From a virus, in the IMG/VR virus record IMGVR_UViG_3300007504_000003, positions 1 to 64,000 of that record: 64,000 nucleotides of DNA. One strand, given 5' to 3'. Position numbers and translations under genes: made by a program. Positions within the stretch are counted from its first letter, which is position 1, and each line of letters starts with the position of its first letter. Positions 5,365-63,782 of the stretch are shown here, one piece after another. Below the pieces are notes generated by a model, which did not search any database, was not told the origin of the DNA, and saw only the letters and a program-made list of their open reading frames with translations.

Positions 5365-6372
5365 ATGCAACGATCCGCCCGAGCTAGTGTCAAGCCCGTC
5401 CGTCAGCGGACGCAATACACCTGCGTCCCTTGCTCTCTCTCAATGGCTCTACAGGCGTTGGGGATCGACACGACTGAGGACGAGGTCAACAAAGTTCTCG
5501 GAGCCCGCCCCATGAAAGGGGCGAGCTGGGAGCAGGTACTCGCGGCGGCTCAGCACTACGGCTGTAGAGCTACGCTGACCATGCCGTCTACCGTGGCTCA
5601 ATTGAAATCCTGGACGGATCGCGGGGTCCCGGTACTCATCGCCTGGAATCCCGAAGGCCGGGAGTGGAGTCACGCGAGCACGGTCTTCCATGTAGAAGAC
5701 CGGGGGGAAGGAGAGCAATTTCTCCACATCGCAGACCCCAACATCCCCAACCCCAGCAAGACCGTCCGGGTTGTCCACGAGGACGAGTTTTACGGGAAGT
5801 GGTACGAGAAGTGGCCGAACTATCTTGTCCGCCGCCCGGCGGTCGCTATCGAACGGGAAGTGACCCCGGAAGGAAGACAGGTGCAAGCAAGCCGAAAGCC
5901 GGGTGACCCGGAGTACCAGGAGTGGGCTGAAGGGCAGCTTGAGGAAGTCGTCAGCCAAAAGGGTATCGAGGCTAGAAGCCTCCCAGGCCAGATCGGGATG
6001 CTCGCCTGGGAAAACGGCTACGAAGGGATCCCCCTTGAGCCCTGGCTCCTCTTCCTCGGCAAGACCTATCGCGTAGACGTGCGTGGGGAGCATAAGAAGG
6101 GCGAGAACGGTGCTCGGGGGATCTTCGCGGCTCAACGGGTCGCTGACCGGTGGCTGACCGCGAGGAAAAAGAAGAAGAAGACCCAACCTGTCGTTCAGAA
6201 GAAAGACCCCAACGCCCCAACCAAGAGGCCGGCTCCCAAGAAGAGGAATGAGATAGTCCGTCACCTCATGGAGAAGGGCGGACCTCGGGGCGGGACTCAC
6301 GGTGGGGGTAAGCGAACCCGGAATCGTCGTGACCGTCAGAAGTCCAAGCGTGACCTCCGACAGCACGACTAG
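5365..6372 (+). CDS. C39-like papain-fold cysteine peptidase with basic tail
   Basis: A 335-residue protein. Residues 13-130 look like a peptidase C39-type papain-fold domain: Gln/Cys motif RQRTQYTCVPC (C20), His in EWSHASTVFH (H103) and Asp in HIADPN (D124), giving a Cys-His-Asp triad. C39 enzymes cleave leader peptides, often at Gly-Gly. The middle carries RVADRWL (258-264), the short tag seen in several proteins here. The last about 70 residues are Lys/Arg-rich and probably bind DNA or help packaging. It may be a virion or maturation protease. No signal peptide is visible. The next gene follows 12 bases later. Confidence 0.7.
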   Translation: MQRSARASVKPVRQRTQYTCVPCSLSMALQALGIDTTEDEVNKVLGARPMKGASWEQVLAAAQHYGCRATLTMPSTVAQLKSWTDRGVPVLIAWNPEGREWSHASTVFHVEDRGEGEQFLHIADPNIPNPSKTVRVVHEDEFYGKWYEKWPNYLVRRPAVAIEREVTPEGRQVQASRKPGDPEYQEWAEGQLEEVVSQKGIEARSLPGQIGMLAWENGYEGIPLEPWLLFLGKTYRVDVRGEHKKGENGARGIFAAQRVADRWLTARKKKKKTQPVVQKKDPNAPTKRPAPKKRNEIVRHLMEKGGPRGGTHGGGKRTRNRRDRQKSKRDLRQHD

Positions 6373-6384
6373 GAGACCGAAGCA

Positions 6385-8166
6385 ATGATGACCCTGGCTG
6401 AGATGAAGGCTGCCCTTCAAGTGGACGCCAAGTTCCCGAAGGGCGTGAAAATGACCGTGGACGAAGTCGCTGCGGTTGTGGGGCCTGAGTTCAAAGAAAT
6501 GAACGAGGACCCCCCTCCTTCCGTGCTCAAGGTCCGGGAGGAGATGCAGAAGCAAGGGTCTTCCGCGGAAGACCTGATCTCCCGGCTCGCTTCGGAAAAC
6601 AACCTCCGCTTCCCAGGACGCGACCAGGAGGATCTGACCTCCCGTTTTGCCGGGATCGTCGAGGAAAACCCGGACTTCTTCCACGGCAACCTCGGGAAGA
6701 AGAGGGAAGAGATGCCCCAGCTCCGGGGGGAGCATCTTCCAGGCTTCTTGAACAGCCTGGAAGAAGGAGGCATCCAGGTGGTCCGTCTGCCGATCCCAGC
6801 GTCAACGCTGATGGCGACTCAGATGGAGATGGACAGCGAGAAAGTCTCCACTATGATCGCCAACGTGGAGTCCGGAAAGCAGACCCTTCAGGATCTCGCG
6901 GGAGAGGTTCTGGTCTCCCACGACAACCACATCCTCGATGGGCATCACCGATGGGCAGCCGTATTCGCCCTGGACCCCTCTTTTGAGATGCCCGCCATTC
7001 GGATCGGGATGGATATTGAGGGCTTGCTGGAAGCTGCTGAGATCTACGGCGGAGCGAAGCACGAGACCGTCAGACAGGCTTTCTCCGAGATCATCGCCAA
7101 GGCCGCTTCTGTAGAGGACTACGGGGATTCTCCCAGGATTGCGGCTTACCTGGGCTACCCGGTCCCCGAAGAGCCCGGAGTCCTGGTGTGGAACCTGCAA
7201 GCGTACATGAACGAAGGTCCAGGCGCCGCCGGGATGTTCAAGACGGTCAGGGATAAGCGAACCGCATCCGAAGGCGGTGCGGTTCCGATTCTCCTCCGCA
7301 TCCCGGCAGGAACAGTAGTTCACCAGATTCGTGCCTCTCGGGAAGGGCTGGTGAACCGGCTCCAGGCGACCGACTTGACTCCTGAGCGGAAGCACAGCGG
7401 GCTCTACGGCTTCAGGAAGGCGACGCAGAGGGACTGTGAGACCTGCATCCGGAAGCTCCAGCGGCGGGCTGTCAAGATCGCCAGGAAGCTCTGGGCCACG
7501 GAAGGTCAGGAAGCCGTGGACTTCCTGACCACCCACAAGGCCCGGACCAAGAGCAGGACCGCCAGGGTGCTGCTGACCGCGATGAAGGGGCTCGGCCCCC
7601 GCATCGCGGAGAAGATCTCCAAGGTAGCCTCTGTTGGGGGCCCCGTTGTCCAGCTCGCCACGGACGACACCGAGGTTCGGGTGTACGAGTCAGGAGGTCG
7701 CTTCTTCGGCCTCAGCTCGACGGAAGGAGAGAGCACTCTTCAGGCCAGTGACTTCAGCCATAGCCAGATGGCTGCCTGGATTCGTGAACGGATCGCGAGA
7801 AACCCGAGCATGACCGTCCTCTCCCACGACCAGGAGCGATTCGTTCTGGAAGTTCCCACGGGGGGCGTCGGGAAGACCGCCAGCGGGAGCCACGGTCTCT
7901 ATGGGTTCCGGTCCAAGACAGCCGATCGATGCCTCCAGGCGTGCTCTCAGGTGCGGAAGGCTTCCGGCGCGGTCGCTGTTGATCTTCACCGACGTCGAGC
8001 AGAGCAGCACGGCAGGATCACCGGATTCCTCAAGGCTCATTGCAGCGGGAGTCGGTGTCAATTCGCCAAGATGTTGCTCGACGCCTATCCGGACGCAAAC
8101 CGCCGACTCGCGTCAGTGGAGCTGCCCCCGCCGCCCAACTCCGTTGAAGGCTGGCTGAGCCTCTAG
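6385..8166 (+). CDS. ParB/Srx-like domain protein with duplicated LYGF-Cys module
   Basis: A 593-residue protein with AGGAG upstream of ATG 6385. The N-terminal half has a ParB/sulfiredoxin-type motif (LVSHDNHILDGHHRWAA, near residue 185), found in ParB-like nucleases and ATPases. Two related copies of another module follow: GLYGFRKATQRDCETC with a helical tail (about 336-400), and GLYGFRSKTADRCLQAC with a similar tail (about 506-575). The protein ends in PPPPNSVEGWLSL. I cannot assign a function to the duplicated module; its two Cys could bind metal. It follows the C39-like peptidase closely and may share its transcript. It could be a virion-associated or DNA-modifying protein. Confidence 0.6.
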   Translation: MMTLAEMKAALQVDAKFPKGVKMTVDEVAAVVGPEFKEMNEDPPPSVLKVREEMQKQGSSAEDLISRLASENNLRFPGRDQEDLTSRFAGIVEENPDFFHGNLGKKREEMPQLRGEHLPGFLNSLEEGGIQVVRLPIPASTLMATQMEMDSEKVSTMIANVESGKQTLQDLAGEVLVSHDNHILDGHHRWAAVFALDPSFEMPAIRIGMDIEGLLEAAEIYGGAKHETVRQAFSEIIAKAASVEDYGDSPRIAAYLGYPVPEEPGVLVWNLQAYMNEGPGAAGMFKTVRDKRTASEGGAVPILLRIPAGTVVHQIRASREGLVNRLQATDLTPERKHSGLYGFRKATQRDCETCIRKLQRRAVKIARKLWATEGQEAVDFLTTHKARTKSRTARVLLTAMKGLGPRIAEKISKVASVGGPVVQLATDDTEVRVYESGGRFFGLSSTEGESTLQASDFSHSQMAAWIRERIARNPSMTVLSHDQERFVLEVPTGGVGKTASGSHGLYGFRSKTADRCLQACSQVRKASGAVAVDLHRRRAEQHGRITGFLKAHCSGSRCQFAKMLLDAYPDANRRLASVELPPPPNSVEGWLSL

Positions 8167-12424: not shown

Positions 12425-13498
12425 ATGCCTATCAACCCCCAGGATTTGTCTCTTCGGCTTCAGACGCTTGAAGCCGTCGCCGGGGAACCGCTAGGGGCGT
12501 GGTCTCAGAATCCTTACGTTGGATGGCAGCGGGCGAAAGCCTGGGTCGAGAACGAAGGCTCTGACATGGACCCCCTCTGGACGGCAGAACGAGATCATCG
12601 ATTCTGGTCGGCTTTTGAGGGTGCCGTTCTCGGATACCTCAAGAAGAACATGGGCCCGGCTGACTCCAGCCGGAACACGCCCGAAGAGGCGTTCTCCTCT
12701 ATCCTGATGGGTATCCCCCTCGGGGCTGGGCAGATCCGTGACCCCCTCTTCCGGGGGATCGGGAAGCAGCTCCGGACCAAGATCCTTCGGGGTCAGGCGA
12801 AGCCCCTGGATGTGCTCCGGCTGGCGATCAGGGGAGGCAAGCAGCGAGCGAATGACGAGCTGCGGGTATCTGGAGACCGGATCCGTCACCGCGATGAAGG
12901 GACTGACCTGACAGCCCCGGGAAGCTCTGACGACCCGAGGCATCGCCGTCAGTTGGGTGACCCGGGTCAGGCCCCTGCTTTCGCCCCTGAGGAAGGCGGC
13001 GTTAAGGAATTCCTCGGCAAGGATGCCCGGGAAGCCGTCATCCAAGCCATCACGAGGGGGATGGTGGGAGAGGGTCAATCCTCCCCGATCTGGCAGCGTC
13101 TCATCTCGGTGTGGCTCGGTCAGGATGACCGCTTCCCCAGGGCGAAGGCAAGTCCCCGTGAGGTTCAGGTACTCCAGGCGATTCGGGAGAACTACCGAAA
13201 CCTTCAGCAGAAGAGGCGGGAGCAAGGGGAGCCCGGGACTGAGGGCTACGACAGCAGCCTCGATTTCAAGTGGAAGGATGTAGCTGGACTGACTGGCCTC
13301 ACACCGGCTCAGGTGAGCCGGTCTATCCGGAAGCTTGGTGACAAGATCAACACGTTGCTCAAGTCTCCTGGTGCTGTAGAAGACCTGTTCAACACCCCCC
13401 AGCTTCGTCAAGAGCTGACGCAGCAGATTCGACTCGCGAAGACCAGGAAGAAGAAGGCGGCAGAACGAGTCGCCCTCAGGTGGTTGGAACAAGACTGA
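12425..13498 (+). CDS. Helix-turn-helix protein, possibly sigma-like
   Basis: A 357-residue protein. The last third has a helix-turn-helix reminiscent of sigma region 4 (FKWKDVAGLTGLTPAQVSRSIRKL, about 280-303), preceded by SPREVQVLQAI. The N-terminal half is helical without a clear motif. It ends in a basic stretch and RVALRWLEQD, a C-terminal copy of the recurring RVAxRWL tag. It could be a sigma-like or other transcription regulator, perhaps carried in the virion if the tag is a packaging signal. It has its own promoter-like element. Confidence 0.45.
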   Translation: MPINPQDLSLRLQTLEAVAGEPLGAWSQNPYVGWQRAKAWVENEGSDMDPLWTAERDHRFWSAFEGAVLGYLKKNMGPADSSRNTPEEAFSSILMGIPLGAGQIRDPLFRGIGKQLRTKILRGQAKPLDVLRLAIRGGKQRANDELRVSGDRIRHRDEGTDLTAPGSSDDPRHRRQLGDPGQAPAFAPEEGGVKEFLGKDAREAVIQAITRGMVGEGQSSPIWQRLISVWLGQDDRFPRAKASPREVQVLQAIRENYRNLQQKRREQGEPGTEGYDSSLDFKWKDVAGLTGLTPAQVSRSIRKLGDKINTLLKSPGAVEDLFNTPQLRQELTQQIRLAKTRKKKAAERVALRWLEQD

Positions 13499-40562: not shown

Positions 40563-40877
40563 GTGAGCACGATCCTCTCAGTTCATCGAGTTGTCCTCGC
40601 CCGCACCGTGGCTCGACGGTGGCTGGAGGCTCAGGCTCGCCCTGAGTACCGGGTGAAGGTCTTCTTCAATGGTGAGCGAGACGGGCGGGGTGTGGGGAAG
40701 CTCCTGCATCTTTACCGGGATGGGAAGACCAAGGTCGGCGGCGTTGAGCCCATCTTGGACCTCGGGATCCGAGAAGAGTTCGATCATCTCGTACTTTGGT
40801 CCGAGGACCAGGAAGCGATGGTTCGTCTCAGCGAGTGGTTTGAGAAGAAGGGCTACGAGACCACCGGAGTCTGGTAA
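40563..40877 (+). CDS. Small protein carrying the RVAxRWL-type tag
   Basis: A 104-residue protein from GTG 40563. The N-terminus contains LARTVARRWLEAQA (tag TVARRWL, 15-21), followed by a compact alpha-beta region (IREEFDHLVLWSEDQEAMVRLSEWF, in part). The gap before it holds a small stem CCAGG/CCTGG. It precedes fibre-like genes and may be virion-associated because of the tag. Function unknown. Confidence 0.5.
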   Translation: MSTILSVHRVVLARTVARRWLEAQARPEYRVKVFFNGERDGRGVGKLLHLYRDGKTKVGGVEPILDLGIREEFDHLVLWSEDQEAMVRLSEWFEKKGYETTGVW

Positions 40878-41317: not shown

Positions 41318-42511
41318 ATGCCCGACAACTTCCAGGTGGACCAGCTTCAGATTGAGCCCGGCAGCGGAGATACTCTGACGGTGAGTCGGGACGCGACCGC
41401 GGGGGCGATGAAGTTTATCGACGCGGTGGAGACTTCAGGGCTCTTGCTCTCTCAGCTCGCGGGTCTCCAAACGATCACTGGCATTCTGATGGTCGGCCGG
41501 GCAGGCTCGGGGGCTCAGTACACCACCATCCAGTCAGCGATCGACGCTGTCTCGGGAGCCACCGCGGCCTCCCCGACGTTGATCCTGATCGGTCCCGGCA
41601 CCTACACCGAGAACCTGACCATTGATGAGGACGGGGTTTGTCTGGTGGGTCTGGGTCGGGTTGTTCTCCAGCCCAGCACCGCAACCAGTCCGACGATCAC
41701 GATTCAGGCGGGGTCCGGAATCCCTCTCTTCACCCTCCTGCGGAACCTTCGGGTGGAGCACACGGGGGACGGGGAGGACTGCGTTTACATCGTGGGTGGG
41801 GCCAGTTCGACCGTCGCCAGCACGGGAGTCTACCTCCACGATTGCGATCTGATTGCCTCCGGGGTCGGGACCTACAACATCCGAGCCTCCGCGGTTAATC
41901 ACATTCGGGTGGTCGGCGGGTCCTGGGAAGGGTCCAGCTCGACAGCGGTCTGCTCGGTTGCTAACTGCGCTTCGTTTCACCTGGAGCGGGTGGCTCGGGT
42001 CATAGACCTCCAGCTCTCCTATGACACCGCGAATTCTCGACCCTCGGTCACGACTTCAGAGTACAAGGTGGTGGGTTGCTCTCAGATAGGAGCCTCGACC
42101 AATGACTTGGACGGGGCAGGGAGCCTCCTTTATGCCGGCTGCCCTTCCGTTGGTGCCATTACGATCGGCGGAGATCGGACCCTGACCCTGGTGGGGTCTC
42201 GGGTGGGGAATCTGGTTCTCAATGAGACGATTGCTTGTACTCGTATCGGAGGAGCCCGGGGGACGCTGACAGGGGATGGAACGATGACGGAGTCCGGGGT
42301 GATGGCTGTGGTGGCTTTTTCTTCGGAGACCTCCAAGGCGGTTCTCTTCGACGCTGACATGCCTGATACCAGCTACGCGGTCCATCTCGATTGGGAGGAT
42401 ACCAGCCTCACAGCAGCGGTGACCTCCCGGGCAACGACGGGGTTCACGATCTCGACAAGTGCTAGCTACACGGGCAACGTGTCCTACACAGTCACAAGGC
42501 AGATGACATGA
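41318..42511 (+). CDS. Right-handed beta-helix tail spike or fibre
   Basis: A 397-residue protein. Residues about 65-330 have the pectin-lyase-like pattern (AQYTTIQSAIDAVSGATAASP, then LIGPGTYTENLTI, with repeated short beta turns), the parallel beta-helix of phage spikes. The N-terminal 50 residues may attach to the tail; the C-terminal about 70 form the domain shared with the gene before (SSETSKAVLF..., SRATTGFTI). It probably binds or degrades host surface sugars. No catalytic residues can be assigned. Acts at the virion surface. Confidence 0.7.
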   Translation: MPDNFQVDQLQIEPGSGDTLTVSRDATAGAMKFIDAVETSGLLLSQLAGLQTITGILMVGRAGSGAQYTTIQSAIDAVSGATAASPTLILIGPGTYTENLTIDEDGVCLVGLGRVVLQPSTATSPTITIQAGSGIPLFTLLRNLRVEHTGDGEDCVYIVGGASSTVASTGVYLHDCDLIASGVGTYNIRASAVNHIRVVGGSWEGSSSTAVCSVANCASFHLERVARVIDLQLSYDTANSRPSVTTSEYKVVGCSQIGASTNDLDGAGSLLYAGCPSVGAITIGGDRTLTLVGSRVGNLVLNETIACTRIGGARGTLTGDGTMTESGVMAVVAFSSETSKAVLFDADMPDTSYAVHLDWEDTSLTAAVTSRATTGFTISTSASYTGNVSYTVTRQMT

Positions 42512-42636
42512 TGAGAGAGGCCCGGGTCGCGTCCCGTTGGCTTACAGCTTCCCTGACCTTTCAGGAGTTGGCGGCGGGGGTCATCGAGTTGACCCAACGG
42601 GGCCGTAAAATGAGACTACTCCAGCCCCGTCGTTGA
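42508..42636 (+). CDS. 42-residue micropeptide with RVASRWL tag
   Basis: A short frame starting with ATG 42508 (overlapping the spike stop by ATGA) reads MMREARVASRWLTAS, then a Leu/Ala-rich helix and a basic end. It contains RVASRWL (residues 6-12), the tag shared with several other proteins. Coupling and the tag argue for a real gene. It may be a tag-only peptide or a remnant. Confidence 0.5.
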   Translation: MMREARVASRWLTASLTFQELAAGVIELTQRGRKMRLLQPRR

Positions 42637-43896: not shown

Positions 43897-44115
43897 ATGT
43901 CCTCTCGACCTGACACGACCCTCTGGGATGTAGCCCAGCTCAACGCTGGGAAATCCGCAGACGCCCGGCCTTTCAGTGGTTCTCACAGCAACCGAAGGGT
44001 TGCTTCCGAGGTGGCTCTTCGTCGGAAGGCGATTCGGCTTGCTTCCGTGACGGAGAACCCGGAGCTGAAGACGGCTCTCCTGGGGGAGCTGAGGAAGGAT
44101 ATTCGTCGAGCATGA
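43897..44115 (+). CDS. Small hypothetical protein
   Basis: A 72-residue protein with NRRVASEVALRRKAIRLAS, a possible diverged tag, and the NPELKTALLGEL segment shared with 42981-43259. Overlaps the next gene by ATGA. Function unknown. Confidence 0.5.
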   Translation: MSSRPDTTLWDVAQLNAGKSADARPFSGSHSNRRVASEVALRRKAIRLASVTENPELKTALLGELRKDIRRA

Positions 44116-44401: not shown

Positions 44402-45022
44402 TTGACCCCCTCAGCTTCCCGAGTAGCTGACCGTTACTTGAAAGCGAAGGCCCGTTCCCGCACCGCGGGCGAGGTCATTTTCAAGAAGGACCGGAGCGGC
44501 GACCGCAACGAGTGGGCCTGGAATGATCACGCTCCCTCTGCTCGGGAGATGGACGAGGGGTTTGTGTTCGACCCCCGCCAGCTCAAGCCCCTCGCCCAGG
44601 TGCTTCGGTCTACCCTGGCTGGTTTGGGCCATGTCTCCAGTGCTCACCAGAATTTTCTCAAGGTCAAGAGCGCGAGGGTGAGCCCAGATGGGAACCTCGG
44701 AGGACGGGGTTACATCCAGAAGATCGCGGACATGCGGCGGGGGTTCATGAACGTCTGCGAGGCCCTGTCTGCGTTATCCGATACCCTCTATGATGAGATC
44801 AACGCCCCTCATTGGAACCCTGAGGCAGCCGTGGACAAGCGGGAGCGGGAAGAGGTTCAGGATATCGTGGACGACGCTGAAGAGATTCGTCGGGACCCGG
44901 AAGGTTGGGCGAAAGAGGAAGAGGCGGAGATGGACGCCGAGCATGACAAGATGGCTTCTTCTGAGCGGGTACAGATGAGGAATCGGGTCGCTCACCGTTC
45001 CTTGTCCCGGAGGATTGGCTGA
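44402..45022 (+). CDS. RVADRYL-tagged hypothetical protein
   Basis: A 206-residue protein starting at TTG 44402, with AGGAG upstream. The N-terminus carries RVADRYLKAKA (tag 7-13); near the C-terminus NRVAHRSLSRR is a possible second copy. The body is charged and helical with an acidic segment (VDDAEEIRRDPEGWAKEEEAEMDAE in parts). No enzyme motif. It overlaps the next gene by ATGA-type coupling. Probable virion cargo or structural protein. Confidence 0.55.
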   Translation: MTPSASRVADRYLKAKARSRTAGEVIFKKDRSGDRNEWAWNDHAPSAREMDEGFVFDPRQLKPLAQVLRSTLAGLGHVSSAHQNFLKVKSARVSPDGNLGGRGYIQKIADMRRGFMNVCEALSALSDTLYDEINAPHWNPEAAVDKREREEVQDIVDDAEEIRRDPEGWAKEEEAEMDAEHDKMASSERVQMRNRVAHRSLSRRIG

Positions 45023-52426: not shown

Positions 52427-55400
52427 TGAACCTACGACAGGCTCGGGGTCTCCCCCGGGTAAGCCGCCACGTCGTCTCGCGTCGATGGGTCCGGATCTGT
52501 CTGAGCAGGAGGGAGTCCCGGTGAGTCGAGTGAAAGATCGGAGCAAGGTCCGAGTCGGCAAGCCGAAGAGGCTCGTCCGGGCTTCCTCGATGCGAATGGG
52601 CTACAGCAGCTCAGGGCTCGGGTCGGCCAGCACTGTGGATGCGGCTCACGGGAACTACTACCACCCGGAGCTGAGCACCGATTTTCTGGAGCTGCCCCAG
52701 AGTCAGCAGGAGCAGTGGAACTTTTATCGGCACTTCTACCGGTCTCATCCCTTCGTGGGGCAGGCGCTTGATCTCCATACGGAGTTGCCTCTGTCGAAGG
52801 TCCGGATCTCGCCTCCTAAGGCGAGGAACCGGGATTTGGCGATGGCGGCTTCGCGGTTCTGTACTCGCTGGGCACAACGAATCAAGCTGCTCTCTCGTCT
52901 CAGGGAAATCGTCCACGAGTATCACCTGTTGGGCGTGGTGAACATCTACGCAGAGGATACCTCTCCGGATATGCCGGATGAGGTGCGGTTCCGTTCGGAC
53001 ACGTACCTGGAAGAGACTCCAGATGGAGAACCGCTCCTCAGGACAGAGCGACGGCTCCGGGAGGACGCCAACGAGCGTGCCGTTGCGTGGTTGAAAAAGA
53101 ACTACAAGGGGTGGACAGCCCTGCGGGTTCTTCCACCTGAGCAGGTGGATGTAGAGAGCTTCCCTTTCACTGATGAGAAGCTGTTTAGTCTCCGCCCAGA
53201 CAAGCGGACTTTGACCCTGGTTGACCGGGCTCGTGGGGGGGATCGTCGAGCACGTCGGGTGTTGGAGTCCATGCCTGTGGAGGTGGTCAAGGCTCTACAG
53301 GATGGGGAGGCTATCCCTCTCAACACGGATCCGGACGCCGGCTCCTTCATCTACCACATGGAGCGAAAGCGGTCGCAGTACGAGAACCGCCCCCACAGCA
53401 TGTTGGAGCGGTGCATCCTCCCAGGCACCCCCATCACGGTTCTTCGGAACAACACCATACTTGAAGTACCTGTCGAGCTGGTCAACGTCGAGACCGATCT
53501 CCTGCTCACGCATACCGGAGCCTTTCATAAGGCTGAAGCAGGCTCCCGCCCTGTAGCGGAGGACATTACTGTTCTTTGGCTCGATGGCGAAGACCGTCCC
53601 CTATGCCTCACCTCAGACCACCCGCTCCTCCGTCTTGACGACGACAGTTCTGAGAAGTGGGTTTACGCCGGGAATCTCAAGGAAGGTGACACCCTCCGAG
53701 AAGCCCACCCGGTCCCTACTTCAGGACACCCTGAAGTCATCGATCTCGCTGCTTGGTGGGAGAATAAGGGCTCGCTTCAGGTTGAGCGTCGAGTTCGGGA
53801 CAACCAGCAAGGTCTGGTTGTTGACACCACCCGTGAAGTTCGGGTAGCCGAAGTCATGGCGGATGAGGAGGGCCTTACGGTCCACTTTGAGCATGACCAG
53901 GACGATGTAGGACGTGTCAGAACCGTCGAGAACGACCGGCGACTTACTCGTTGGCTCAAGTCCCTCAAAGAATCAAAGACGGCGTCCTCGACGGCTGTGG
54001 CCGCCGTTACGGGGCTCACCAAGTCCGAGGTCCAGAACGCTGTCCGTCGTTTCGAGAGAGATGTGCCTGCCTTCCATCGGACAGTCGAGGGGCGAAAGGT
54101 CACTTGGTACCCTCTCCCGGAGACTGCCACCTCCCCAGGCTCAGTCGTCACCAGAACAGAAACCAGCTCTATTCACCAGATCCCGCTCACCCCCGATTTC
54201 ATGTACCTCCTGGGTACATGGTTCGGAGATGGTTGGGCTTGGAAGGCAAAGGGCAAGTTCCTCAACACAGTTTGCCTTGCTTGGTCTATCGATAAGAACG
54301 CCGACAAGCTCCGGTCTCGAATCCGAGACCACCTGGAGACCTTCTTCGGGGCAGATTCCGTGGTCGAGGGCAACCTGTTCTCTGGTTCCGGCTCCTCTAC
54401 AGAGAATCTCCGGGTTGAAGATTCCTTGTTGGCTCGGTGGTTTTACGAGGAGTTCGGAGGATCGGCTCAGACCAAGACAGCCCCCAAGTGGGTGTTCGAC
54501 CTTCCTGAGCAGCACATCTTGTCCTTCCTCCAGGGTCTTCTGGACACCGATGGTTTCTGTCGAGCAGGCCGGGTCTCGACTGCTCTGGTTCAACTGGACA
54601 ACGAGACTCTCATCCGTCAGGTCCATCTGCTATGCAGCCGAGTCGGGATCAAAACACAAGTGAGACCTGTTCGCCGGGAAGCCCGCAGTTGGACACGCAC
54701 CTGGGTGACGACGGAAGGGGTTCAGGAGAAGACTTACGACTACGAGCCTAAGACCTTCTGGCAGGTGTCCTGCACCCGACATGAGGATGTTCTCAAGTGG
54801 GTCTCCGGGACCATCAAGGGTGCCGAGGTCAACTGGCCGGAGAGGAACCACTCCTGGGGGAGCCCGTTCCAAGACGGGTGGCTGACCCGGAAGGTCAGGA
54901 AGGTCGAGACCGTCTGGTACGAAGGGCTTGTCCACTCTTTTGACGTTGAAGTAGATTCGAGCCTTGTTGCTCTAAGTGTCTGTATTCACAACTGTATTCG
55001 GACGCTCGTCCACCAGGATAAGTTGCGACAGGCAAATGCTTCTATCGCCTCTCGGCATATGACTCCGGTGAGGATCGTCTGGGCGGAGGATATGGACGCC
55101 GCGGACACGGAGGCTCTTCGCGATCAGGTCGATATGGCTCTCGCGGATCCAGATTTCTCCATCGTGGCGAACTTTGAAATTCGCTGGGAGGAGATGGGGG
55201 GAGGACAGGGGAACCGACTCCTTGAGACCTCCCAAGAGTATGACCGGGCGGATCGGGAGCTGTACGCCGGCCTCAGTGTCACCGAGTCTCTTCTGACAGG
55301 AGAGTCAACCTACTCCGCCGACAGGACGAGCCTGGAGGTTATCAACACCCGATACATGTTCCTTCGGGAGTTCCTTCAGGACTTCGTTCAGGACTGCCTA

Positions 55401-55787
55401 TTTGAGCCCATGTGCCGTCGAATGGGTTTTATCGAAGAGGATGAAGATGGGGAAGAGGTGGTCCTGACTCCGCTTCTGAGCTTCACCCGGTTGGGCATCC
55501 GGGACACTCAGGACACCTTCGACGCCTTCATGAATCTCTACCAGAAGGGTTCACTCCCGGTGGAGACCATCTATGAGTTGCTCAACATCGATCCGGTGAC
55601 CGCGACTGAGAAGCTCAAGGAGGACTCCATGACGCTTCGGGACGCGACCTTCAACGAAGTCTTCCGAGGTCTCTATAGCGAGGTAGCTCGACAGTTGGTT
55701 GAGGGCTCTGACGCCGTGGATAAGATCGCGAAGATTCTGGGGCTGGAGTACGAGAAGCCGAAGGAGGACTCTGGAGGGAGGTTCTAA
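52419..55787 (+). CDS. Portal protein with intein
   Basis: A 1122-codon frame; without the 527-residue intein the extein is 595 residues, in the range of large portals. Extein marks: NFYRHFYRSHPFVGQALDL, IVHEYHLLGVVNIYAED, the QVDVESFPF region and, after the splice, LAGLS-like RELYAGLSVTESLLTGES, with a C-terminal helical part. The portal forms the ring through which DNA enters and leaves the head. It follows terL, as usual. The splice junction is MLER|CIRTL. Capsid and protease genes are not in the window. Confidence 0.82.
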   Translation: MADEPTTGSGSPPGKPPRRLASMGPDLSEQEGVPVSRVKDRSKVRVGKPKRLVRASSMRMGYSSSGLGSASTVDAAHGNYYHPELSTDFLELPQSQQEQWNFYRHFYRSHPFVGQALDLHTELPLSKVRISPPKARNRDLAMAASRFCTRWAQRIKLLSRLREIVHEYHLLGVVNIYAEDTSPDMPDEVRFRSDTYLEETPDGEPLLRTERRLREDANERAVAWLKKNYKGWTALRVLPPEQVDVESFPFTDEKLFSLRPDKRTLTLVDRARGGDRRARRVLESMPVEVVKALQDGEAIPLNTDPDAGSFIYHMERKRSQYENRPHSMLERCILPGTPITVLRNNTILEVPVELVNVETDLLLTHTGAFHKAEAGSRPVAEDITVLWLDGEDRPLCLTSDHPLLRLDDDSSEKWVYAGNLKEGDTLREAHPVPTSGHPEVIDLAAWWENKGSLQVERRVRDNQQGLVVDTTREVRVAEVMADEEGLTVHFEHDQDDVGRVRTVENDRRLTRWLKSLKESKTASSTAVAAVTGLTKSEVQNAVRRFERDVPAFHRTVEGRKVTWYPLPETATSPGSVVTRTETSSIHQIPLTPDFMYLLGTWFGDGWAWKAKGKFLNTVCLAWSIDKNADKLRSRIRDHLETFFGADSVVEGNLFSGSGSSTENLRVEDSLLARWFYEEFGGSAQTKTAPKWVFDLPEQHILSFLQGLLDTDGFCRAGRVSTALVQLDNETLIRQVHLLCSRVGIKTQVRPVRREARSWTRTWVTTEGVQEKTYDYEPKTFWQVSCTRHEDVLKWVSGTIKGAEVNWPERNHSWGSPFQDGWLTRKVRKVETVWYEGLVHSFDVEVDSSLVALSVCIHNCIRTLVHQDKLRQANASIASRHMTPVRIVWAEDMDAADTEALRDQVDMALADPDFSIVANFEIRWEEMGGGQGNRLLETSQEYDRADRELYAGLSVTESLLTGESTYSADRTSLEVINTRYMFLREFLQDFVQDCLFEPMCRRMGFIEEDEDGEEVVLTPLLSFTRLGIRDTQDTFDAFMNLYQKGSLPVETIYELLNIDPVTATEKLKEDSMTLRDATFNEVFRGLYSEVARQLVEGSDAVDKIAKILGLEYEKPKEDSGGRF
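53412..54992 (+). other. Intein of the portal protein, with a helix-turn-helix insert
   Basis: A 527-residue intein from Cys (CILPGTPITVLRNN) to VALSVCIHN, followed by extein Cys. Block B is LTSDHPLLRL. LAGLIDADG motifs: LLGTWFGDGW and LQGLLDTDGF. Between the splicing and endonuclease parts lies a winged-helix-like insert (STAVAAVTGLTKSEVQNAVR and the following VEGRKVTWYPL), probably aiding DNA recognition. Confidence 0.88.
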
Positions 55788-57602: not shown

Positions 57603-60600
57603 ATGAATCAGCATGTTCAGGTCGCTGCGGAGCTTCGCCGTCGCATGGGGAGTCTGGTGTATACCAGCTCGGGTGTGTTGTATGTCCTGACACCCGAGAC
57701 GCTGGCTCAGTTGTCTGAGGGTGACCAATGGGTCGGGCTGGTGTCTTCGGACGATCTGGAGGGGGCTCACCGGCTTGTAGAGCACTGCGGCGGGGGTGTA
57801 CTCCGGGAGCCTTCGTCGGGGACCTATGCGGTAGAGACCGTTGCCAAGTGGGGTCGTGTAGGGGCTCAGGTCGGGACTGATACCGCCGCGGTCTGGGCGA
57901 TTGCTCCGGAGCAGCTCCATCATTTTATCGAAGATGAGGGGCTCGCTGGCCTGGATTGGCAGGTGTGGGCGAATCGCTGGGAGGATCTGGAGTCGTCCTG
58001 GCGTGCTCATGGCGGCGCCGTCTTTCATACGGGTGGGGACGGGGGGTTTGAGGTTGAGGTTGAGGGAGCGGTGCGTAGTCTGGGTTTGACTCGCCCCTAC
58101 GGTACCCCGCAGTACCGGGAGGCTGGCTGGTGGGCGATCACTCCAGAGGACCCTGGAATCAACCCGCCGCCCGTGGATAAGGGCGGCCTCATGAACGCGG
58201 TCCCTGGCGTCGATCCTGATGAAGGGGCGTTGTATAACGGGGACGGCCCAGCGGACATGATGGAGGCAGTCCTCGATGAGATCGACATGATCTATCGAGA
58301 GGCGTGGGGTCGTGGGGCCACCGTGGCGGAGATGGATGCCGTCTGGGAGTTTATCTTTCGCGGGTACCGGAAGGGAGCGAAGGCGTCGGGCTGGAATGTC
58401 TGGGTAGACAAGGCGGTCGAGTTGACCGGCGTTCCAATGAAGGTTCTCCTCCTTTGTCTGGACGAGTCGAGGACTCGGGACGCTGTTCGCCTTTGGCGTG
58501 AGGGGTCTGAGCGCGGGGACTTTACGGGGTTCGGGGAACATATCAAGGCGTGTGTCAGTCTCGCCTGGGATGATTCTTCTTTCATGATGGAGCAGCTTCC
58601 AGCGAAGCCGGATTCGGTCAAGTTACTCCTGGCTCGCCAGTACCGGCAGGCGTTTGATGAGGAGCGTTTGACGGAAGCTGGTAAGGCGATCGAAGGGTTC
58701 TCTCTCGGGATGGCTCTGGCAATCACGCAGGGGTTTGTGAGCACCCACCCGTTCTTCGACCTGGGGGAGATCCGACGATTCATCCAGATCCGGAAGAAGT
58801 ACCACGGGGTGTTTACGGCAGCCGCCGCTGTGCTGGCGGAGTATTTCGGGGACGCCCCTCGATTCCAAGCCGCTATCCCGGGTCTCAGGCGGATCTCTAT
58901 CATGCCCCCGGCTCAGGTTCGGGGAGCCTTGTCCGCGGGCGTTCAGGCATTCCGGTCGCTAGGTCGTGTTCGGGTGTCGGACCTCCCCGGGTACGAGTAC
59001 CAGTCTCCTCCGCGATTGGTAGTTCAGTCCTTCGTCGCGATTCACCGAGCCTTGCGGCTCTCGGGTCTTGAGGAGCGGGGGGACTACTACCGGGCATTCT
59101 CGGACCTGGAGACCCTTCTGGACGTCTTCCTCCGGAGTCGTTCGACTCCCGCCCCCGTGAAGACTCTCTTCCGTAAGCTGAAGCTGCTGGGCATCCCCAG
59201 GGACAGCGCAGACGTGCTCCACTTCGACGCAGACCCCGGGGCTTGGTTTGACCTGACTTCGGACCAGAGAGCGGGAATCCGTAGAGAGGTTCTCGGCCTC
59301 CAAGATGAGCTGTCCTCGTTGTTCACTCGGGACATGGACGTGGAAGAGCGTTCTGCGGAAGCAAAGCGGCTGATGGGGGCGTTGTCGCAGATTCAGGCCC
59401 GAGCCGGCATCCACCTTGCTCATCTCATGGAAGAGGACCAACCTCCTCTGGACAAGGTGCTTCGATCCGAGGCTCAGGTGAACCGGGACGGGCCGACAGA
59501 ATACGTCTTGGATTCGTTCAAGAAAGACCTCCTTTCCTCCTGGGAGGAGAGCCCCTCTTTCCGGCCGAAGCTCCTCAGTAAGCGAGAGTTGGGGAAGCTG
59601 TTCACGACGCTGGACAAGGTGAAGACGTTCTCGACGATGGAGCGGGTGATCAAGACTGCGGTTCGTCGTGGTCTGCTCCATAAGACCGCTCTGGAGACGC
59701 TGACGAGCAAGCTGGATAAGGCTCGTCGAAACAAGGCTCTTCGGGACAATCCTGTCCTGGCCCCTCTCCAGTGGGAGCCGATGACGGAGCAAGAGTTTGT
59801 CGCGGCTCATGATGCGGGAGGCGTTGATTTCCGAGGAGATGCTTGGACTGAGGAGCAGAAGGCAGAGGTGCTGGGCCGGGCGAGCCGGGCGATTGTGGAC
59901 TTGGAGGGCGTCTTCGGGAAGGGGTTCTGCGGCAGGCACGCCAGGAAGTTGATGTTCCGGTTCCACGAGGGCTCCGGGACGGGGTCGGGAGCCCTCGCTC
60001 ATTACTTCGGGTGGGAGGATCGGAATCGCTGGCAGCCTCGGGTGAGCTTCGGGGAGGATTTCGACGGGCTATTAGCCCACGAGCTGTCTCATTACTTTGA
60101 AGACCTCCTGGCCTTCCGGATTGAGAAGGCGACCAACCCGGACATGCCAGAGTACCAGTATGGGGACGTAGCCCATGGCTGGGGAGACCTCTTCGGGAGG
60201 ACGGGGACCTCTCTCCGTCAGTTTGTGGAGAGGTCGGGCAATAGCACGATGGGGAAGGCTCTTCAGGAGCACTTCCCGGAGTTCTTGGAGCTGATGGCGA
60301 CGGTGGTGTCCACGCCCGATTATGCTCGGTGGGAGGACAAGATCGGCGGTGCCCTCAGTGACGCTCTCTATGAGGCGATCACTGAGGTGACGGGTCAGAG
60401 CCCCTATGCCGAGGGCAACGAGCAAGCTCGTGGTTGGATGGATGCTCAGTACCAGTCAGACCTCCCTCCGGAGGTACTGGAGGCAGCCAAGCGGAGGGCG
60501 ATTCGGCTACGGGATGGGGATCCGCGGAAGCTTACCTACTACCACTCCTCCCCAGAGTGCTGGGCTCGGCTCTGCGAGCAGTATGTCTACACGAAATTGG

Positions 60601-61346
60601 CCCGCCAGGGGATCGCGAATCCCTGGCTGACGCAGTTGACCTATGACGTGGATGTGTTGGACCAGTTCGTAGAGGAGGCCACCTTTGAAGAGCGGATCGA
60701 ACCTCTCATGGACGCCGTGTTCAACAAACTCCGGGACCGCTCGATCATCGCCCGGGTCGTTCGTCGAGAGCAGGAGCTATCTCGGATAGTTGATAGAAAG
60801 TTGATCCTGTTAAAAACAGGTACTTACGAGCGTCTCCTCCGCTGTGGGGCGGCTGAAGGAGATGGTTCTCGGGTTGGTGTCTTCATCCCCTTGCCCGCGA
60901 ATCTGGCTCAGCAGTTCCCCTCTCTCAAGGAGGATTCGAGCCCTGTTCATGTGACCTTCCTGTACGCCGGGAAGGTCTGGGAGGAGGGGTTGTTCATGGA
61001 GATTCTGAGGCGTCGGCTAGGGGAGCTGGAGGCTCCTGTCCAAGCGAGGCTGGACGGTCAGGACTTCTTCCGCAACGCAGACGGCTACATCCCTCATGTC
61101 CGGGTTCGGTTCGATCAGGATCTTGCTCGGGTTCGGAAGCTAGTGATCGACGATCTTCGGGAGGCGGGCTGGACTCTGGCGGATAGGAGTCAGATGGTGT
61201 GGCGGCCTCATGTCACTCTCGGCTACCAGAAGCCCCACTCGGAGCATTATCAGGGTGAGGTCCCGACAGGCGGTTGGGAATTTGATCGCTTGGAAGTCTG
61301 GGGCCTGGAGCGTAAGAAGGTTTTGCTCCTGGGCAAAAAAGCCTAG
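57603..61346 (+). CDS. Polyvalent protein: zincin peptidase plus 2H phosphoesterase
   Basis: A 1247-residue protein. The N-terminal 200 residues have two beta-rich repeats; the middle is helical. Around 826-830 is a zincin motif LLAHELSHYFE, with an FDGLL lead as in peptidases carried in phage 'polyvalent' proteins. The C-terminal 130 residues form a 2H phosphoesterase: two HxT motifs, HVTFLYAG (1116-1118) and HVTLGYQK (1203-1205). Such enzymes cut 2',5'- or cyclic phosphodiester bonds; phage Acb1, which destroys immune cyclic nucleotides, is of this fold. Size and multidomain plan suggest injection with DNA. Activity is inferred. Confidence 0.7.
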   Translation: MNQHVQVAAELRRRMGSLVYTSSGVLYVLTPETLAQLSEGDQWVGLVSSDDLEGAHRLVEHCGGGVLREPSSGTYAVETVAKWGRVGAQVGTDTAAVWAIAPEQLHHFIEDEGLAGLDWQVWANRWEDLESSWRAHGGAVFHTGGDGGFEVEVEGAVRSLGLTRPYGTPQYREAGWWAITPEDPGINPPPVDKGGLMNAVPGVDPDEGALYNGDGPADMMEAVLDEIDMIYREAWGRGATVAEMDAVWEFIFRGYRKGAKASGWNVWVDKAVELTGVPMKVLLLCLDESRTRDAVRLWREGSERGDFTGFGEHIKACVSLAWDDSSFMMEQLPAKPDSVKLLLARQYRQAFDEERLTEAGKAIEGFSLGMALAITQGFVSTHPFFDLGEIRRFIQIRKKYHGVFTAAAAVLAEYFGDAPRFQAAIPGLRRISIMPPAQVRGALSAGVQAFRSLGRVRVSDLPGYEYQSPPRLVVQSFVAIHRALRLSGLEERGDYYRAFSDLETLLDVFLRSRSTPAPVKTLFRKLKLLGIPRDSADVLHFDADPGAWFDLTSDQRAGIRREVLGLQDELSSLFTRDMDVEERSAEAKRLMGALSQIQARAGIHLAHLMEEDQPPLDKVLRSEAQVNRDGPTEYVLDSFKKDLLSSWEESPSFRPKLLSKRELGKLFTTLDKVKTFSTMERVIKTAVRRGLLHKTALETLTSKLDKARRNKALRDNPVLAPLQWEPMTEQEFVAAHDAGGVDFRGDAWTEEQKAEVLGRASRAIVDLEGVFGKGFCGRHARKLMFRFHEGSGTGSGALAHYFGWEDRNRWQPRVSFGEDFDGLLAHELSHYFEDLLAFRIEKATNPDMPEYQYGDVAHGWGDLFGRTGTSLRQFVERSGNSTMGKALQEHFPEFLELMATVVSTPDYARWEDKIGGALSDALYEAITEVTGQSPYAEGNEQARGWMDAQYQSDLPPEVLEAAKRRAIRLRDGDPRKLTYYHSSPECWARLCEQYVYTKLARQGIANPWLTQLTYDVDVLDQFVEEATFEERIEPLMDAVFNKLRDRSIIARVVRREQELSRIVDRKLILLKTGTYERLLRCGAAEGDGSRVGVFIPLPANLAQQFPSLKEDSSPVHVTFLYAGKVWEEGLFMEILRRRLGELEAPVQARLDGQDFFRNADGYIPHVRVRFDQDLARVRKLVIDDLREAGWTLADRSQMVWRPHVTLGYQKPHSEHYQGEVPTGGWEFDRLEVWGLERKKVLLLGKKA

Positions 61347-61352: not shown

Positions 61353-61360
61353 CGTATAGA
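61353..61360 (+). promoter_or_regulatory. CGTATAGA promoter-like element
   Basis: CGTATAGA followed by GGGAC and ATG 61366, a five-base gap, matching 13517. Again a leaderless or near-leaderless arrangement. Confidence 0.55.
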
Positions 61361-61365
61361 GGGAC

Positions 61366-62634
61366 ATGTCGCCTTACGCTCCAAGAATCGCGGACCTTTG
61401 GCTGTCCCGCTCTGCGGATTCGGCTGCCCACGTTCGTTCAATCGCGTTGATGCGGTTTCTCTCCCGGCTGGCTCTCCGGCTGGGGAGAGCCGTGGCTGAG
61501 AACGTCTACGTGGTGGGCGGGGCGGTTCGGGATTTCGTCTTGGACCGTCCGATCAAGGATATCGACGTGGTGATCGACTCCGTCTCTCTCGGGAGAGACA
61601 GCGAGTGGTTCGCCCGTCAGATTTCCGCAGCCGTCCCGGCTCGGACGTCGCTGGTGACCAACAACTATGGGGTCGCCATTCTCACCATTTCGGAGTCCTG
61701 GGTTCTGGAAGGTGTGGAGATGCAGGGCGAAGTGATCGAGATCGCCAATGCCCGGACGGAGTCCTATGGGGGTGCTTCAGGGAAGGGCTACAAGCCCTCG
61801 GAGGTCGCTCCGGCGAGGATTGAGGATGACGTGGCACGCAGGGAGTTGTCCTACAACACCTTGATGATCCGGCTCCTCCATCTGGCGGACGGGCCGGATA
61901 AGGCAGACATTCTGGACCTGACGGGCTGCGGCCTCAGTGACCTGGAAGCTGGGATTATGCGTTGCCCGGCGGATCCCAACATTGTGTTCTCCGACGACCC
62001 GAGCCGGATGATCAGGGTGATTAAGTTCGCTCTTCGTTACGGGCACCGTCTCACTGAGGACACTCGGGCGGCGATCCTCAACAACGCGGAGAAGATCAAG
62101 AACATCCCGGGCGGGCATCTCATCAACCTCCTGACGGGGATCATCCTCCGTGAGGCGACCTGGAAAGAAGCCCTTCAGTGGATGCAGGATCTGAACCTCC
62201 TGGCACCGATCAGGGAGATGGTGCTGTCGGACGAGCAGCTCAAGACCTCTCTCATCAACCACATCCGGGGTTACCGGTTGGAGATGCTGTTCAGCTTGAT
62301 GGATCTGGGATTGCCGGTGGGCTACCGCGTGCGTTTCCTCCCTCGGGCGGATCAGAGTCATCTACGCGACTCTATCGGTCACTGGCCGGCTGAGGAAGCG
62401 TGGGGGTTCGTGGAAGCCTTGCGGAACCCTGGCGTCATCATCCAGGACAAGAAGTTTTTCCCTGAACTGGCTCGGGAGCATGGGTTCCTCGGCCCTCAAA
62501 TCGCGGGGTTCAACCGCGAGGTGTACCTGCCCATAGCTCGGAGGATCCTGATGGGGGATCCCCACATTCGGTTGAGCCCGGCCCGCTTTCGACGAGAGAT
62601 CGCTGACCGAGTCAGGGCACGTCTTCGGCGGTAG
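61366..62634 (+). CDS. cca: CCA-adding/poly(A) polymerase-family nucleotidyltransferase
   Basis: A 422-residue class II nucleotidyltransferase. The head carries VYVVGGAVRDFVLDRP and DIDVVID (catalytic Asp residues); then VIEIANARTESY, the DVARRELSYNTLMI motif and the neck motif DDPSRMIRVIKFALRYG. Length is close to bacterial CCA enzymes. It would add CCA (or A) to tRNA 3' ends. No normal tRNA gene is in the window. The N-terminus begins with PRIADLWLSRS, a form of the recurrent tag, so it may also be packaged. Confidence 0.8.
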   Translation: MSPYAPRIADLWLSRSADSAAHVRSIALMRFLSRLALRLGRAVAENVYVVGGAVRDFVLDRPIKDIDVVIDSVSLGRDSEWFARQISAAVPARTSLVTNNYGVAILTISESWVLEGVEMQGEVIEIANARTESYGGASGKGYKPSEVAPARIEDDVARRELSYNTLMIRLLHLADGPDKADILDLTGCGLSDLEAGIMRCPADPNIVFSDDPSRMIRVIKFALRYGHRLTEDTRAAILNNAEKIKNIPGGHLINLLTGIILREATWKEALQWMQDLNLLAPIREMVLSDEQLKTSLINHIRGYRLEMLFSLMDLGLPVGYRVRFLPRADQSHLRDSIGHWPAEEAWGFVEALRNPGVIIQDKKFFPELAREHGFLGPQIAGFNREVYLPIARRILMGDPHIRLSPARFRREIADRVRARLRR

Positions 62635-62657
62635 GTTCTCTATCTCAGTGGGGTGAT

Positions 62658-63782
62658 ATGAAGGATTACCCGCCCTCTCGTCTTGTAGCCTCTCGTTGGT
62701 TGGTTGCATCCAAGTCGAAGTACCGATCCGTTTTGCGGCGGGGTCGCTCTCGCGTGGAAGCCGCCTACCGGCAGGATGATTGGACTGCGGCTGCGGCTGC
62801 CTATGAGCAGGCGGCTTCGGCTCTCCGTCCCCTCGGGGGACTTCTGGATGGGGTTACCGTCGAGCGGCAGAGTGAGCGGAGGAAGCTGAAGAACGTCCGC
62901 CGGAACCTGTCTCTGATCAAGCGGTATACGGCTCCTGGCTTCCTCCGAGATACCGAGTATCAGACCGCCTATTGGGCTTGGAGTAGCTGGGAGACGCTAG
63001 AAGATGCCGTGAAGGCTGTTCTGAGAGTCTGGGAGCGAGTGACCGGGTACCAGAGCTTGACTCGCTCCTTCCAGCACGGCCCTTTCACGGTTGAGAATCA
63101 CTACGGCTACCGTGAGGAGGAATTGGCGGCACCCTTATCGCTCCTCTCAGGAGCGATGGATCAGATCCGCTCCCGGGGGTTTGAGGAGGTCTTGTACGGG
63201 GTCGTTCAAATAGTGAGCCCGAAGAGCGGGGGGTTCTGTGGGAGGTACTTCAAGAATGGGGACTTCCTTCAGATCAACGCGGATTGCCAGTACCGCTTAG
63301 GGGCTGTTCATACGGTGGTCCACGAGCTAGGTCACCGGTTCTGGTTCCAGAAGATGACGTCCGCACAGCAGAAGGCATATGACGACGCCTATTCGGGTAC
63401 AGCAGGCGTTGTGTTCTCTCTGGGGGACCGGGAGGACATGTGGCAGGCGTTCAAGGAAGCCGGGTACACCCTCCGAGGTGCTCATCGGCGGTTGAGGAAC
63501 CCCGCCTTGCGGGAGCATCTCTCGGATTATGTCCGGGAGAGGAGGAAGGGGTTGTTGATCGTCCCGGACCCGCGGACGGGGTTCATGGAGGCCCATGCTC
63601 AGAGAGCTTTCGTGGTCCCTTCTGTGAGAAACTTCTTCCTGGGCCGCCCCGTCTCCGTGAGTGATTACGCTGAAACAGGCGGGGTGACGGAGGATTTCGC
63701 TGAGGTCTTCGCGTTCTTCTGCACCGGGAAGAGGGTTGACGCAAGGGCTCTGGAACGCTTCCGGGACGCGACCGGCCGCTAG
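62658..63782 (+). CDS. Tagged zinc metallopeptidase
   Basis: A 374-residue protein beginning SRLVASRWLVASKSKYRS (tag LVASRWL, 9-15), followed by a helical region and then a metallopeptidase core: HTVVHELGHRFWF (222-226, HExxH) and, later, VTEDFAEVFAFF, with a possible third ligand. Fits a gluzincin-type phage peptidase. May act in head maturation, host-wall passage or on host proteins after injection. The tag and neighbouring peptidase suggest virion cargo. Confidence 0.7.
   Translation: MKDYPPSRLVASRWLVASKSKYRSVLRRGRSRVEAAYRQDDWTAAAAAYEQAASALRPLGGLLDGVTVERQSERRKLKNVRRNLSLIKRYTAPGFLRDTEYQTAYWAWSSWETLEDAVKAVLRVWERVTGYQSLTRSFQHGPFTVENHYGYREEELAAPLSLLSGAMDQIRSRGFEEVLYGVVQIVSPKSGGFCGRYFKNGDFLQINADCQYRLGAVHTVVHELGHRFWFQKMTSAQQKAYDDAYSGTAGVVFSLGDREDMWQAFKEAGYTLRGAHRRLRNPALREHLSDYVRERRKGLLIVPDPRTGFMEAHAQRAFVVPSVRNFFLGRPVSVSDYAETGGVTEDFAEVFAFFCTGKRVDARALERFRDATGR

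Follow-up and report, generated by a model that had tools for sequence, protein, structure and literature searches.

A short peptide with the consensus (L)(A/S)x-R-V-A-x-R-[Y/F/W]-L-x-(A), derived from 44 non-redundant copies and here termed tag A, recurs in unrelated proteins encoded by the 64,000 nt of viral DNA analysed here (the window), which are bases 1-64,000 of the 126,159-base IMG/VR virus record IMGVR_UViG_3300007504_000003 (the full contig is labelled G000). Tag A is very likely a transferable tag of the targeting type. It lies mostly at the ends of proteins and marks module borders, changes ends on homologous proteins, is selected at the protein level, is exchanged for other N-terminal tags on homologous cargo, and is absent from replication and capsid genes. 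Judging by which proteins carry it and where their genes lie, we put at roughly 60% the probability that it is a head-targeting label, with the virion as destination, that works like the capsid-targeting sequence (CTS) of phage T4.

Genes were called de novo, and the 64 calls in the window together with a 42-residue open reading frame (ORF) give 65 window proteins. A sequence-only reading of the window had listed seven copies of the heptapeptide in dissimilar hosts, five of them near the N-terminus. All seven are present, in frame and on the + strand, at the positions collected in Table 1; five lie at residues 6-15 of their host proteins, and in a BLAST comparison of g007, g013, g044, g052, g063 and g064 none matched another at E<=1e-4. 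At the looseness of that reading, [RTL][VI]Ax[RL][WY]L, the motif occurs seven times in the window proteins, compared with a mean of 0.035 and a maximum of 1 in 1,000 within-protein shuffles. The strict pattern used below, [RK]VAxR[WYF]L, occurs four times, and 0.007 copies are expected from within-protein shuffles.

Relatives were collected through the capsid gene. The product of g075 (contig 81,141-82,016) matches the major head protein family phrog_2522 (E=2.8e-52), the basis of its label as major capsid protein (MCP). Its named relatives are LR745208, a 485-kb uncultured phage (76% identity), Tunturiibacter phage Tunturi_5 (45%) and, over 99% of the query, gp27 of Bacillus phage G (40%); mycobacteriophages such as Myrna (27%) are more distant. 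Judged by sequence, the capsid protein is a homolog of that of phage G, which points to a phage G-type head. Of the 221 encoding stretches in IMG/VR, the best 80 were kept; searches of IMG/VR with g044 or g064 returned a near-copy contig alone. Proteins were counted in eight contigs (G000, G002, G003, G006, G010, G013, G018 and G019; 2,127 proteins), with G001, a near-copy of G000, excluded. Loci lying within contigs already used were dropped from the extra set, and other near-duplicate contigs there were kept in the family counts.

The eight contigs hold 33 strict motifs, compared with 0.17 expected (200 within-protein shuffles, maximum 2). None of 5,040 rearrangements of the motif letters beats the strict motif, and the runners-up (30 and 11) re-read the same tags. 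Within 20 residues of a protein end lie 24 of the 33 motifs, where 5.6 are expected; with G000 removed, 21 of 24 are terminal (4.6 expected). The contigs are related and thus the counts are not independent; for the consensus, redundant windows were removed. A repeat set of 421 proteins was taken from contigs found through g052, four records being picked by size among 15 loci; it consists of G026, G027 and bases 240,001-340,000 of G024, a 619-kb contig. It has 11 strict motifs in 10 proteins (shuffle mean 0.027), a count that may be flattered since these stretches were picked after their DNA-pattern counts were known; the terminal positions, which had not been seen beforehand, put 9 of the 11 no more than 20 residues from a protein end, where 1.66 are expected. 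Thus in the contig and its relatives the motif is far commoner than chance, which confirms what the sequence-only reading had observed and takes it well past the window.

Strand and order controls give the same result. The 80 capsid-gene loci have 22 strict motifs (in 18 loci) on the coding strand, some of them from near-identical contigs, none on the opposite strand and none when the motif is reversed; four permuted forms give 2, 0, 0 and 0. In a prior-free k-mer search of the N-terminal 35 residues, RVA.R ranks first in G010 (14 proteins; shuffle maximum 8), G018 (13; 6) and G019 (10; 7). Among 13 copies in the contig (the one at 61384 excluded), V2, A3, R5 and L7 are each encoded by three or four synonymous codons. 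Such variation among the copies argues for selection on the peptide and not for a DNA repeat.

The position of the tag follows the architecture of the proteins. In G010, G018 and G019 all 13 strict copies are at residues 6-16 or no more than 13 residues from the C-terminus, in proteins of 130-606 residues. The window phage and its closest relatives have related modules joined in fusions, with internal tags at the junctions. In g069 the second tag (residue 170) aligns to the one at the N-terminus of G010_491, a stand-alone topoisomerase IB (59% identity, E=5e-89). The internal tag of g067 (residue 639) aligns to those at the N-termini of G018_143 and G019_035, and the tag of g007 (residue 258) with the C-terminus of a C39 peptidase, L303:12644-13432, which is aligned over g007 residues 1-264 and stops 3 residues past its own tag, RVARRFL. 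G002_059 and G006_072 also have module-border tags, that of G002_059 directly after a module homologous to g063. A topoisomerase IB module is encoded in 13 contigs. In eight of them one of its borders bears a tag-like R[VI]AA[RK][YF], often minus the final L; W03 shows such a sequence at the protein end, and in four none is seen. The tag also changes ends: g063 has it at the N-terminus, and in a homologue that is 48% identical over 398 columns, L294:17383-18714, it is a C-terminal RVASRWL. Tag windows number 49 N-terminal, 16 C-terminal and 61 internal in the loose set, the internal part of which includes chance matches.

Other terminal peptides are found in these phages. Tag D, YDR[RT], has 37 of its 50 occurrences in the first 30 residues (10.8 expected; permuted forms 2/15, 6/15 and 0/13), and as an N-terminal YDR[RT]xxA it is seen in 36 proteins of the set (G010, G018, G019, L045, L048, L050, L058, L065 and L068). 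Tag B, LRxxLIRLAxxxPxLRxxLLPLL, is N-terminal on 12 main-set proteins and occurs 11 times in the repeat set; it is a 25-30-residue end common to unrelated proteins, among them g090, g092, g095 and g128 of G000 and proteins of W03, G026 and G027. Tag C is the N-arm of the capsid protein, QPLxxRRDY, copied in non-capsid proteins at the C-terminus of W03_664, at the N-terminus of G019_142 and internally at residue 103 of G024part_075. In phage G, which has been grown in culture (PMC5646251), 14 proteins (L206-L230) share another N-terminal tag, MKRLxKK. Three of these have a YHGT-type ADP-ribosyltransferase (ART) start by eye only; Pfam finds no ART domain in the MKRLxKK set, and reports SLOG, ParB, ferritin-like and a few weaker domains. 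In the two-thirds of the Tunturi_5 genome examined, no terminal k-mer exceeded the shuffle maximum.

Homologous cargo exchanges tag A for these other N-terminal tags. Among ART-PolyVal homologues, G019_196 and W03_047 bear tag A, and G010_184 and L058_016 bear tag D; DnaJ-like homologues have tag A in G010_527 and G019_288 and tag D in G018_167. L058_014, with tag A, and L065_012, with tag D, are 62% identical. Two kinds of N-terminal tag are found in 5 of 365 families of 2-6 members (shuffle mean 0.55; 0 of 2,000 shuffles reach 5), a restriction chosen after a weak result over all families (given below), because large families dominate the null. In the family-level Fisher test of tag exchange, over all 429 families, p=0.0009.

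The distribution of the tag among gene classes is uneven. The replication block, tail set, portal, protease and scaffold were labelled by eye or from gene order, without a domain search; the terminase label is backed by sequence matches. No tag was found in the replication block (0/27 G000 proteins, 0/118 homologues), in homologues of the MCP and decoration proteins (0/123; the N-arm of the MCP, tag C, is by construction not counted), in homologues of the two putative protease and scaffold genes (0/58) or in the putative tail-gene set (0/22). The terminase/portal set has two of 38 tagged, G003_041, with a tag-like sequence at residue 15, and G006_072, a polyprotein that matches the terminase through its inserted, intein-like segment. 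The tagged G000 proteins, 12 in number, have 80 homologues, of which 29 are tagged by a narrower tag definition, under which 8 of the 12 G000 carriers score. Nine of the 12 tagged genes of G000 are inside the block at 40.5-82.1 kb, which extends from g044 through the terminase gene as far as the MCP and has 34% of the residues (Fisher p=1e-4).

The 90 candidate carriers of tag A form 49 BLAST clusters, so that, as with a CTS of the T4 type, a terminal peptide is shared by unrelated proteins. Pfam and PADLOC were run on 55 of the 90, which leave aside proteins split at stretch ends, those of the window and those judged weak, and on 31 of the 36 tag-D proteins; the control was a random draw of 55 from 859 untagged proteins, taken from G010, G018 and G019. 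The tag-A carriers match Topo IB, GNAT, ART-PolyVal, S-AdoMet lyase, 2'-5' RNA ligase/LigT, C39 and Mx/Mx1 peptidases, DnaJ and, below threshold, Acb1, with one to three members each, and PADLOC reports two families only. The control gives RecA, integrase, AAA, metallophosphatase, NADAR, ferritin and others; the contrast is descriptive. Outside Tunturi_5, all five ART-PolyVal matches (one below the family cut-off) carry tag A or D, and one further match, in G027, has tag A. Several characteristic domains are predicted in single polypeptides, and with ART-PolyVal present these carriers would qualify as polyvalent proteins. Examples are g062, g069, with Topo IB and a metallopeptidase-like module (HEIGH by eye; homologue G018_089), and G002_059, with modules homologous to g063, g062 and the Topo IB of g069.

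A peptide that is short, mostly terminal, portable and exchangeable, that is found on enzymes of the injected type and is absent from replication and shell proteins, fits a head-targeting label. From its sequence the tag, at either terminus of unrelated proteins or at the module borders of fused ones, would form a small amphipathic helix, with a helical moment of 0.633 compared with 0.380 for scrambled versions and 0.290 for random windows. During head assembly it would most likely bind a component inside the head (the scaffold, the core or the inward side of the capsid protein), and this binding would bring the cargo into the procapsid. The cargo, a considerable part of it polyvalent or ejected-type enzymes, would then be delivered along with the DNA. 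Other interchangeable terminal tags (YDRRxA; LRxxLIRLAxxxPxLRxxLLPLL) would serve the same class of cargo, and a maturation protease may remove C-terminal tags between A and [ST] of (K/R)xA[ST]. T4 offers a parallel: in the part of PMC9026906 drawn on here, the first 10 residues of the internal protein IPIII are sufficient for packaging, and propeptides work by their affinity for the head core. Alt, an ADP-ribosyltransferase processed at both ends, and IPI, a type IV restriction inhibitor, are also among the T4 internal proteins. From the pattern described above and this parallel we propose that tag A would bind such an internal component. The capsid N-arm repeated in tag C, and the resemblance by eye of tag B to two scaffold segments, may be a lead to it.

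An unlikely alternative, although the strongest of those considered, is that tag A is a docking motif for an intracellular hub (a compartment, membrane site, chaperone or adaptor) at which tagged proteins gather during infection. The amphipathic terminal helix, and the exchange of tags, would suit any localisation signal, and some of the cargo (CCA-like, DnaJ) is metabolic. However, the proteins of the replication block, the natural clients of a replication compartment, are all untagged; the cargo resembles injected polyvalent proteins, and the tagged genes cluster in the head block.

Less probable still is a processing signal, by which tag A would be the recognition sequence of a maturation protease that separates polyprotein modules, without a role in recruitment. 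The tags at module borders in g067, g069, G002_059 and G006_072 suit such a signal, as does the distribution of a candidate cleavage site, (K/R)xA[ST]. This pattern, a post hoc and exploratory lead, occurs 3.81 times per 1,000 residues in head-region proteins and 1.57 times overall (2.4 times as often); two permuted patterns give 1.07 and 0.94, and 1.43 and 1.13 (1.1 and 1.3 times). The head-region set is 194 non-redundant of 282 proteins encoded no more than 7.5 kb upstream of the MCP in 60 contigs or loci, and includes tagged polyproteins. The same pattern is found upstream of 6 of 16 C-terminal tags, compared with a background of 3.6%. Downstream of N-terminal tags [KR].A[ST] occurs in 1 of 49, and the looser [KR].A[STGA] in 6 of 49, compared with 10.8% of untagged N-terminal windows. 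These N-terminal counts tell against a processing signal and also count against the head-targeting reading, and one cleavage site after every tag is unsupported. Moreover 24 of the 33 strict tags are near protein ends, where cutting separates little; the conserved R5, aromatic residue and L7 exceed the needs of an alanine cleavage site; and the MCP and the putative scaffold and protease are without tag A. The sequence-only reading had suggested that the tags may be cut by a maturation protease, which is partly supported: it may apply to C-terminal tags and finds no support at N-terminal ones.

A recurrent (K/R)xAS, often as (K/R)TAS with acidic residues after it, is a candidate maturation cleavage site in the scaffold-like and protease-like genes that lie upstream of the MCP in G000, G002, G018 and W03. 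In the alignment of g052, A22-G23-E24-V25 is invariant and preceded by K/R-x in 12 of 12 sequences.

That the motif arises by chance, from biased composition or as a DNA repeat that spreads is hardly credible. R and A codons are favoured at the 60% GC of the window, and a degenerate DNA pattern has many control matches (17 vs 46), but the shuffles, the 5,040 permutations, the strand and reverse controls and the mixed synonymous codons rule such an origin out.

Several further observations weigh against head targeting. The prior-free k-mer search did not single out tag A in G000, G002, G003 or G006. The degenerate DNA pattern, the weakest control, is noisy, with 46 matches in 23 contigs compared with 17 for the backward control (20 and 2 in four further contigs found via g052); it has no match in 8 of the 23 related contigs, and none in the nearest isolates, phage G and Tunturi_5. 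For tag exchange, a plain label shuffle over all 429 families has a mean of 3.52 and a maximum of 10, and 6 were observed. Tunturi_5 has eight ART-PolyVal matches with no tag A in the protein parts examined. A CCA-like transferase, DnaJ and one thymidylate-synthase match among the carriers are not obvious early effectors, and the untagged control includes Ferritin and NADAR domains. Virion proteomics for a member of this phage family was not found in the literature searched.

The hosts of the window tags and the further tags of the contig are listed in Table 1. Residues 8-106 of g007 match Pfam Peptidase_C39_2 (E=2.4e-9). In homologues of g044 the tag is retained at residues 13-15 (RVAQRW in G006_082, RVAERW in G003_055, SVAKRF in G002_078 and SVAGRW in W03_594), and in relatives of g064, for which no Pfam family was matched, at residues 6-9 (RVATRY in G010_488, RVASRF in W03_381 and RVAERY in G019_058). 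The AlphaFold2 model of g052 has a mean pLDDT of 67, with a helix at residues 5-16 and coil to residue 49 that are nearly all below 50, and long helices at 58-205; it thus shows little beyond a separate, uncertain tag helix. In g062, 2_5_RNA_ligase2 scores 34.5 bits, above the cut-off, LPD1 scores 23.9 bits, below its cut-off of 27, and HELSH is seen by eye; a stand-alone homologue of its 2H phosphoesterase module, L301:2958-3593, ends with a C-terminal RVAARYL. At residue 348 of 357, the RVALRWL of g013 is a C-terminal tag.

Table 1. Tag A copies, their host genes and associated features (contig and window numbering coincide)
Feature	Position	Strand	Description
g007	5365..6372	+	C39-like peptidase module, tag at residues 258-264, then a very basic C-terminal tail
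RVADRWL tag	6136..6156	+	residue 258 of 335 (g007)
g013	12425..13498	+	no significant domain (HTH_Crp_2 E=0.12); tag at extreme C-terminus
RVALRWL tag	13466..13486	+	residue 348 of 357 (g013); EQD-stop directly after
g044	40563..40877	+	104 residues, function not assigned; N-terminal tag retained in homologues
TVARRWL tag	40605..40625	+	residue 15 of 104 (g044)
Putative 42-residue ORF	42508..42636	+	has tag; missed by gene finder; overlaps end of g046 by 4 bases
RVASRWL tag	42523..42543	+	residue 6 of 42-residue ORF; DNA identical in near-copy G001
g050	43897..44115	+	72 residues; tag B-like C-terminus (LRRKAIRLAS..NPELKTALLGEL)
g052	44402..45022	+	helical protein with N-terminal tag, from 12-sequence alignment and AlphaFold2 model
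RVADRYL tag	44420..44440	+	residue 7 of 206 (g052)
RTAG	44459..44470	+	candidate (K/R)xA-G processing site, cut between A and G, between g052 tag and conserved body
g062	57603..61346	+	1,247-residue multi-domain protein; no strict tag of its own
g063	61366..62634	+	tRNA nucleotidyltransferase/polyA-polymerase-like (PolyA_pol E=3.3e-16); degenerate N-terminal tag
RIADLWL tag (degenerate)	61384..61404	+	residue 7 of 422 (g063)
g064	62658..63782	+	metallopeptidase-like (HELGH by eye), N-terminal tag; phrog_4415 peptidase E=5e-4
LVASRWL tag	62682..62702	+	residue 9 of 374 (g064)
RVASRWL tag	64154		beyond window
RVAARYL tag	65975		beyond window
RVAQRWL tag	67920		beyond window
VVANRWL tag	69629		beyond window
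RVAFRYL tag	70122		beyond window
RVAARYL tag	72033		beyond window
RVAARWL tag	113823		beyond window

Intein-like insertions are seen in the terminase g056 (48499-51828), the portal-like g058 (52485-55787), the ribonucleotide-reductase-like g020 (17219-21436) and the protease-like g072 (contig 74888-78949), those of g058, g020 and g072 being read by eye. Residues 127-596 of the terminase match helicase genes of Enterococcus and Bacillus phages, one of which is annotated as intein-containing.

Should tag A be a head-targeting label, sequence alone would predict proteins that a giant phage injects, many of them without a Pfam match. Injected proteins are present before phage genes are expressed and are thus prime candidates for anti-defence or host-takeover factors; the tagged SAM lyase, ART-PolyVal, peptidases and sub-threshold Acb1 match would already form a candidate anti-defence set. 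Head targeting in phage G-type phages would be testable with a short peptide, which could also be used to load phage heads with proteins of choice. The finding of such a tag could reveal new viral tools for disarming bacteria. Tentatively, and with the odds against it, phage G-type giants in general may use at least three interchangeable address labels for virion cargo (tags A, B and D; MKRLIKK in phage G), some imitating head assembly contacts, that index injected counter-defence proteins.

The strings RVAARYL, RVAARFL, LRPHLLPLL and SYDRRTA had no occurrence in the literature text searched, which most subscription papers and preprints fall outside. Topic searches of titles and abstract beginnings gave papers on the T4 CTS, giant-phage protease and polyvalent proteins, with no such tag described there.

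Encapsulin cargo-loading peptides are short terminal peptides that load cargo inside a shell of the HK97 fold. Tag A is like them in being a short terminal peptide, a likeness of general description only. The closer comparison is with the T4 CTS, proposed already by the sequence-only reading: both are short terminal peptides on unrelated proteins of one phage, and tag A would likewise direct its carriers to the head. Of that analogy, a shared, transferable tag of the targeting type is strongly supported; it fails in that tag A is not only N-terminal, and tag A also differs in being exchangeable. The propeptides of T4 internal proteins are N-terminal, of 10-19 residues, and are removed by gp21. 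Tag A, in contrast, is N-terminal, C-terminal or internal and coexists with alternative tags, and its N-terminal copies have no evident cleavage site; the two are likened by description and not by sequence, and membership of the T4 family is not claimed.

Phage SPN3US, as far as PMC10052503 is drawn on here, has a giant head with many internal proteins, eight of them with N-terminal propeptides (two of 20 and 24 residues), and a prohead protease that cuts at A-x-E. The candidate site in the phages described here differs, being (K/R)xA[ST] with the cut after A, and most tagged proteins are without it. Polyvalent proteins of phages and conjugative elements combine peptidase, ART and other modules in one multi-domain chain, and packaging and injection are predicted for them (Iyer et al. 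2017, PMC5512222, in the part consulted). The architecture of g069, G002_059 and G006_072 is like theirs. Unlike polyvalent proteins as that part of PMC5512222 describes them, single modules and fusions here share one short tag.

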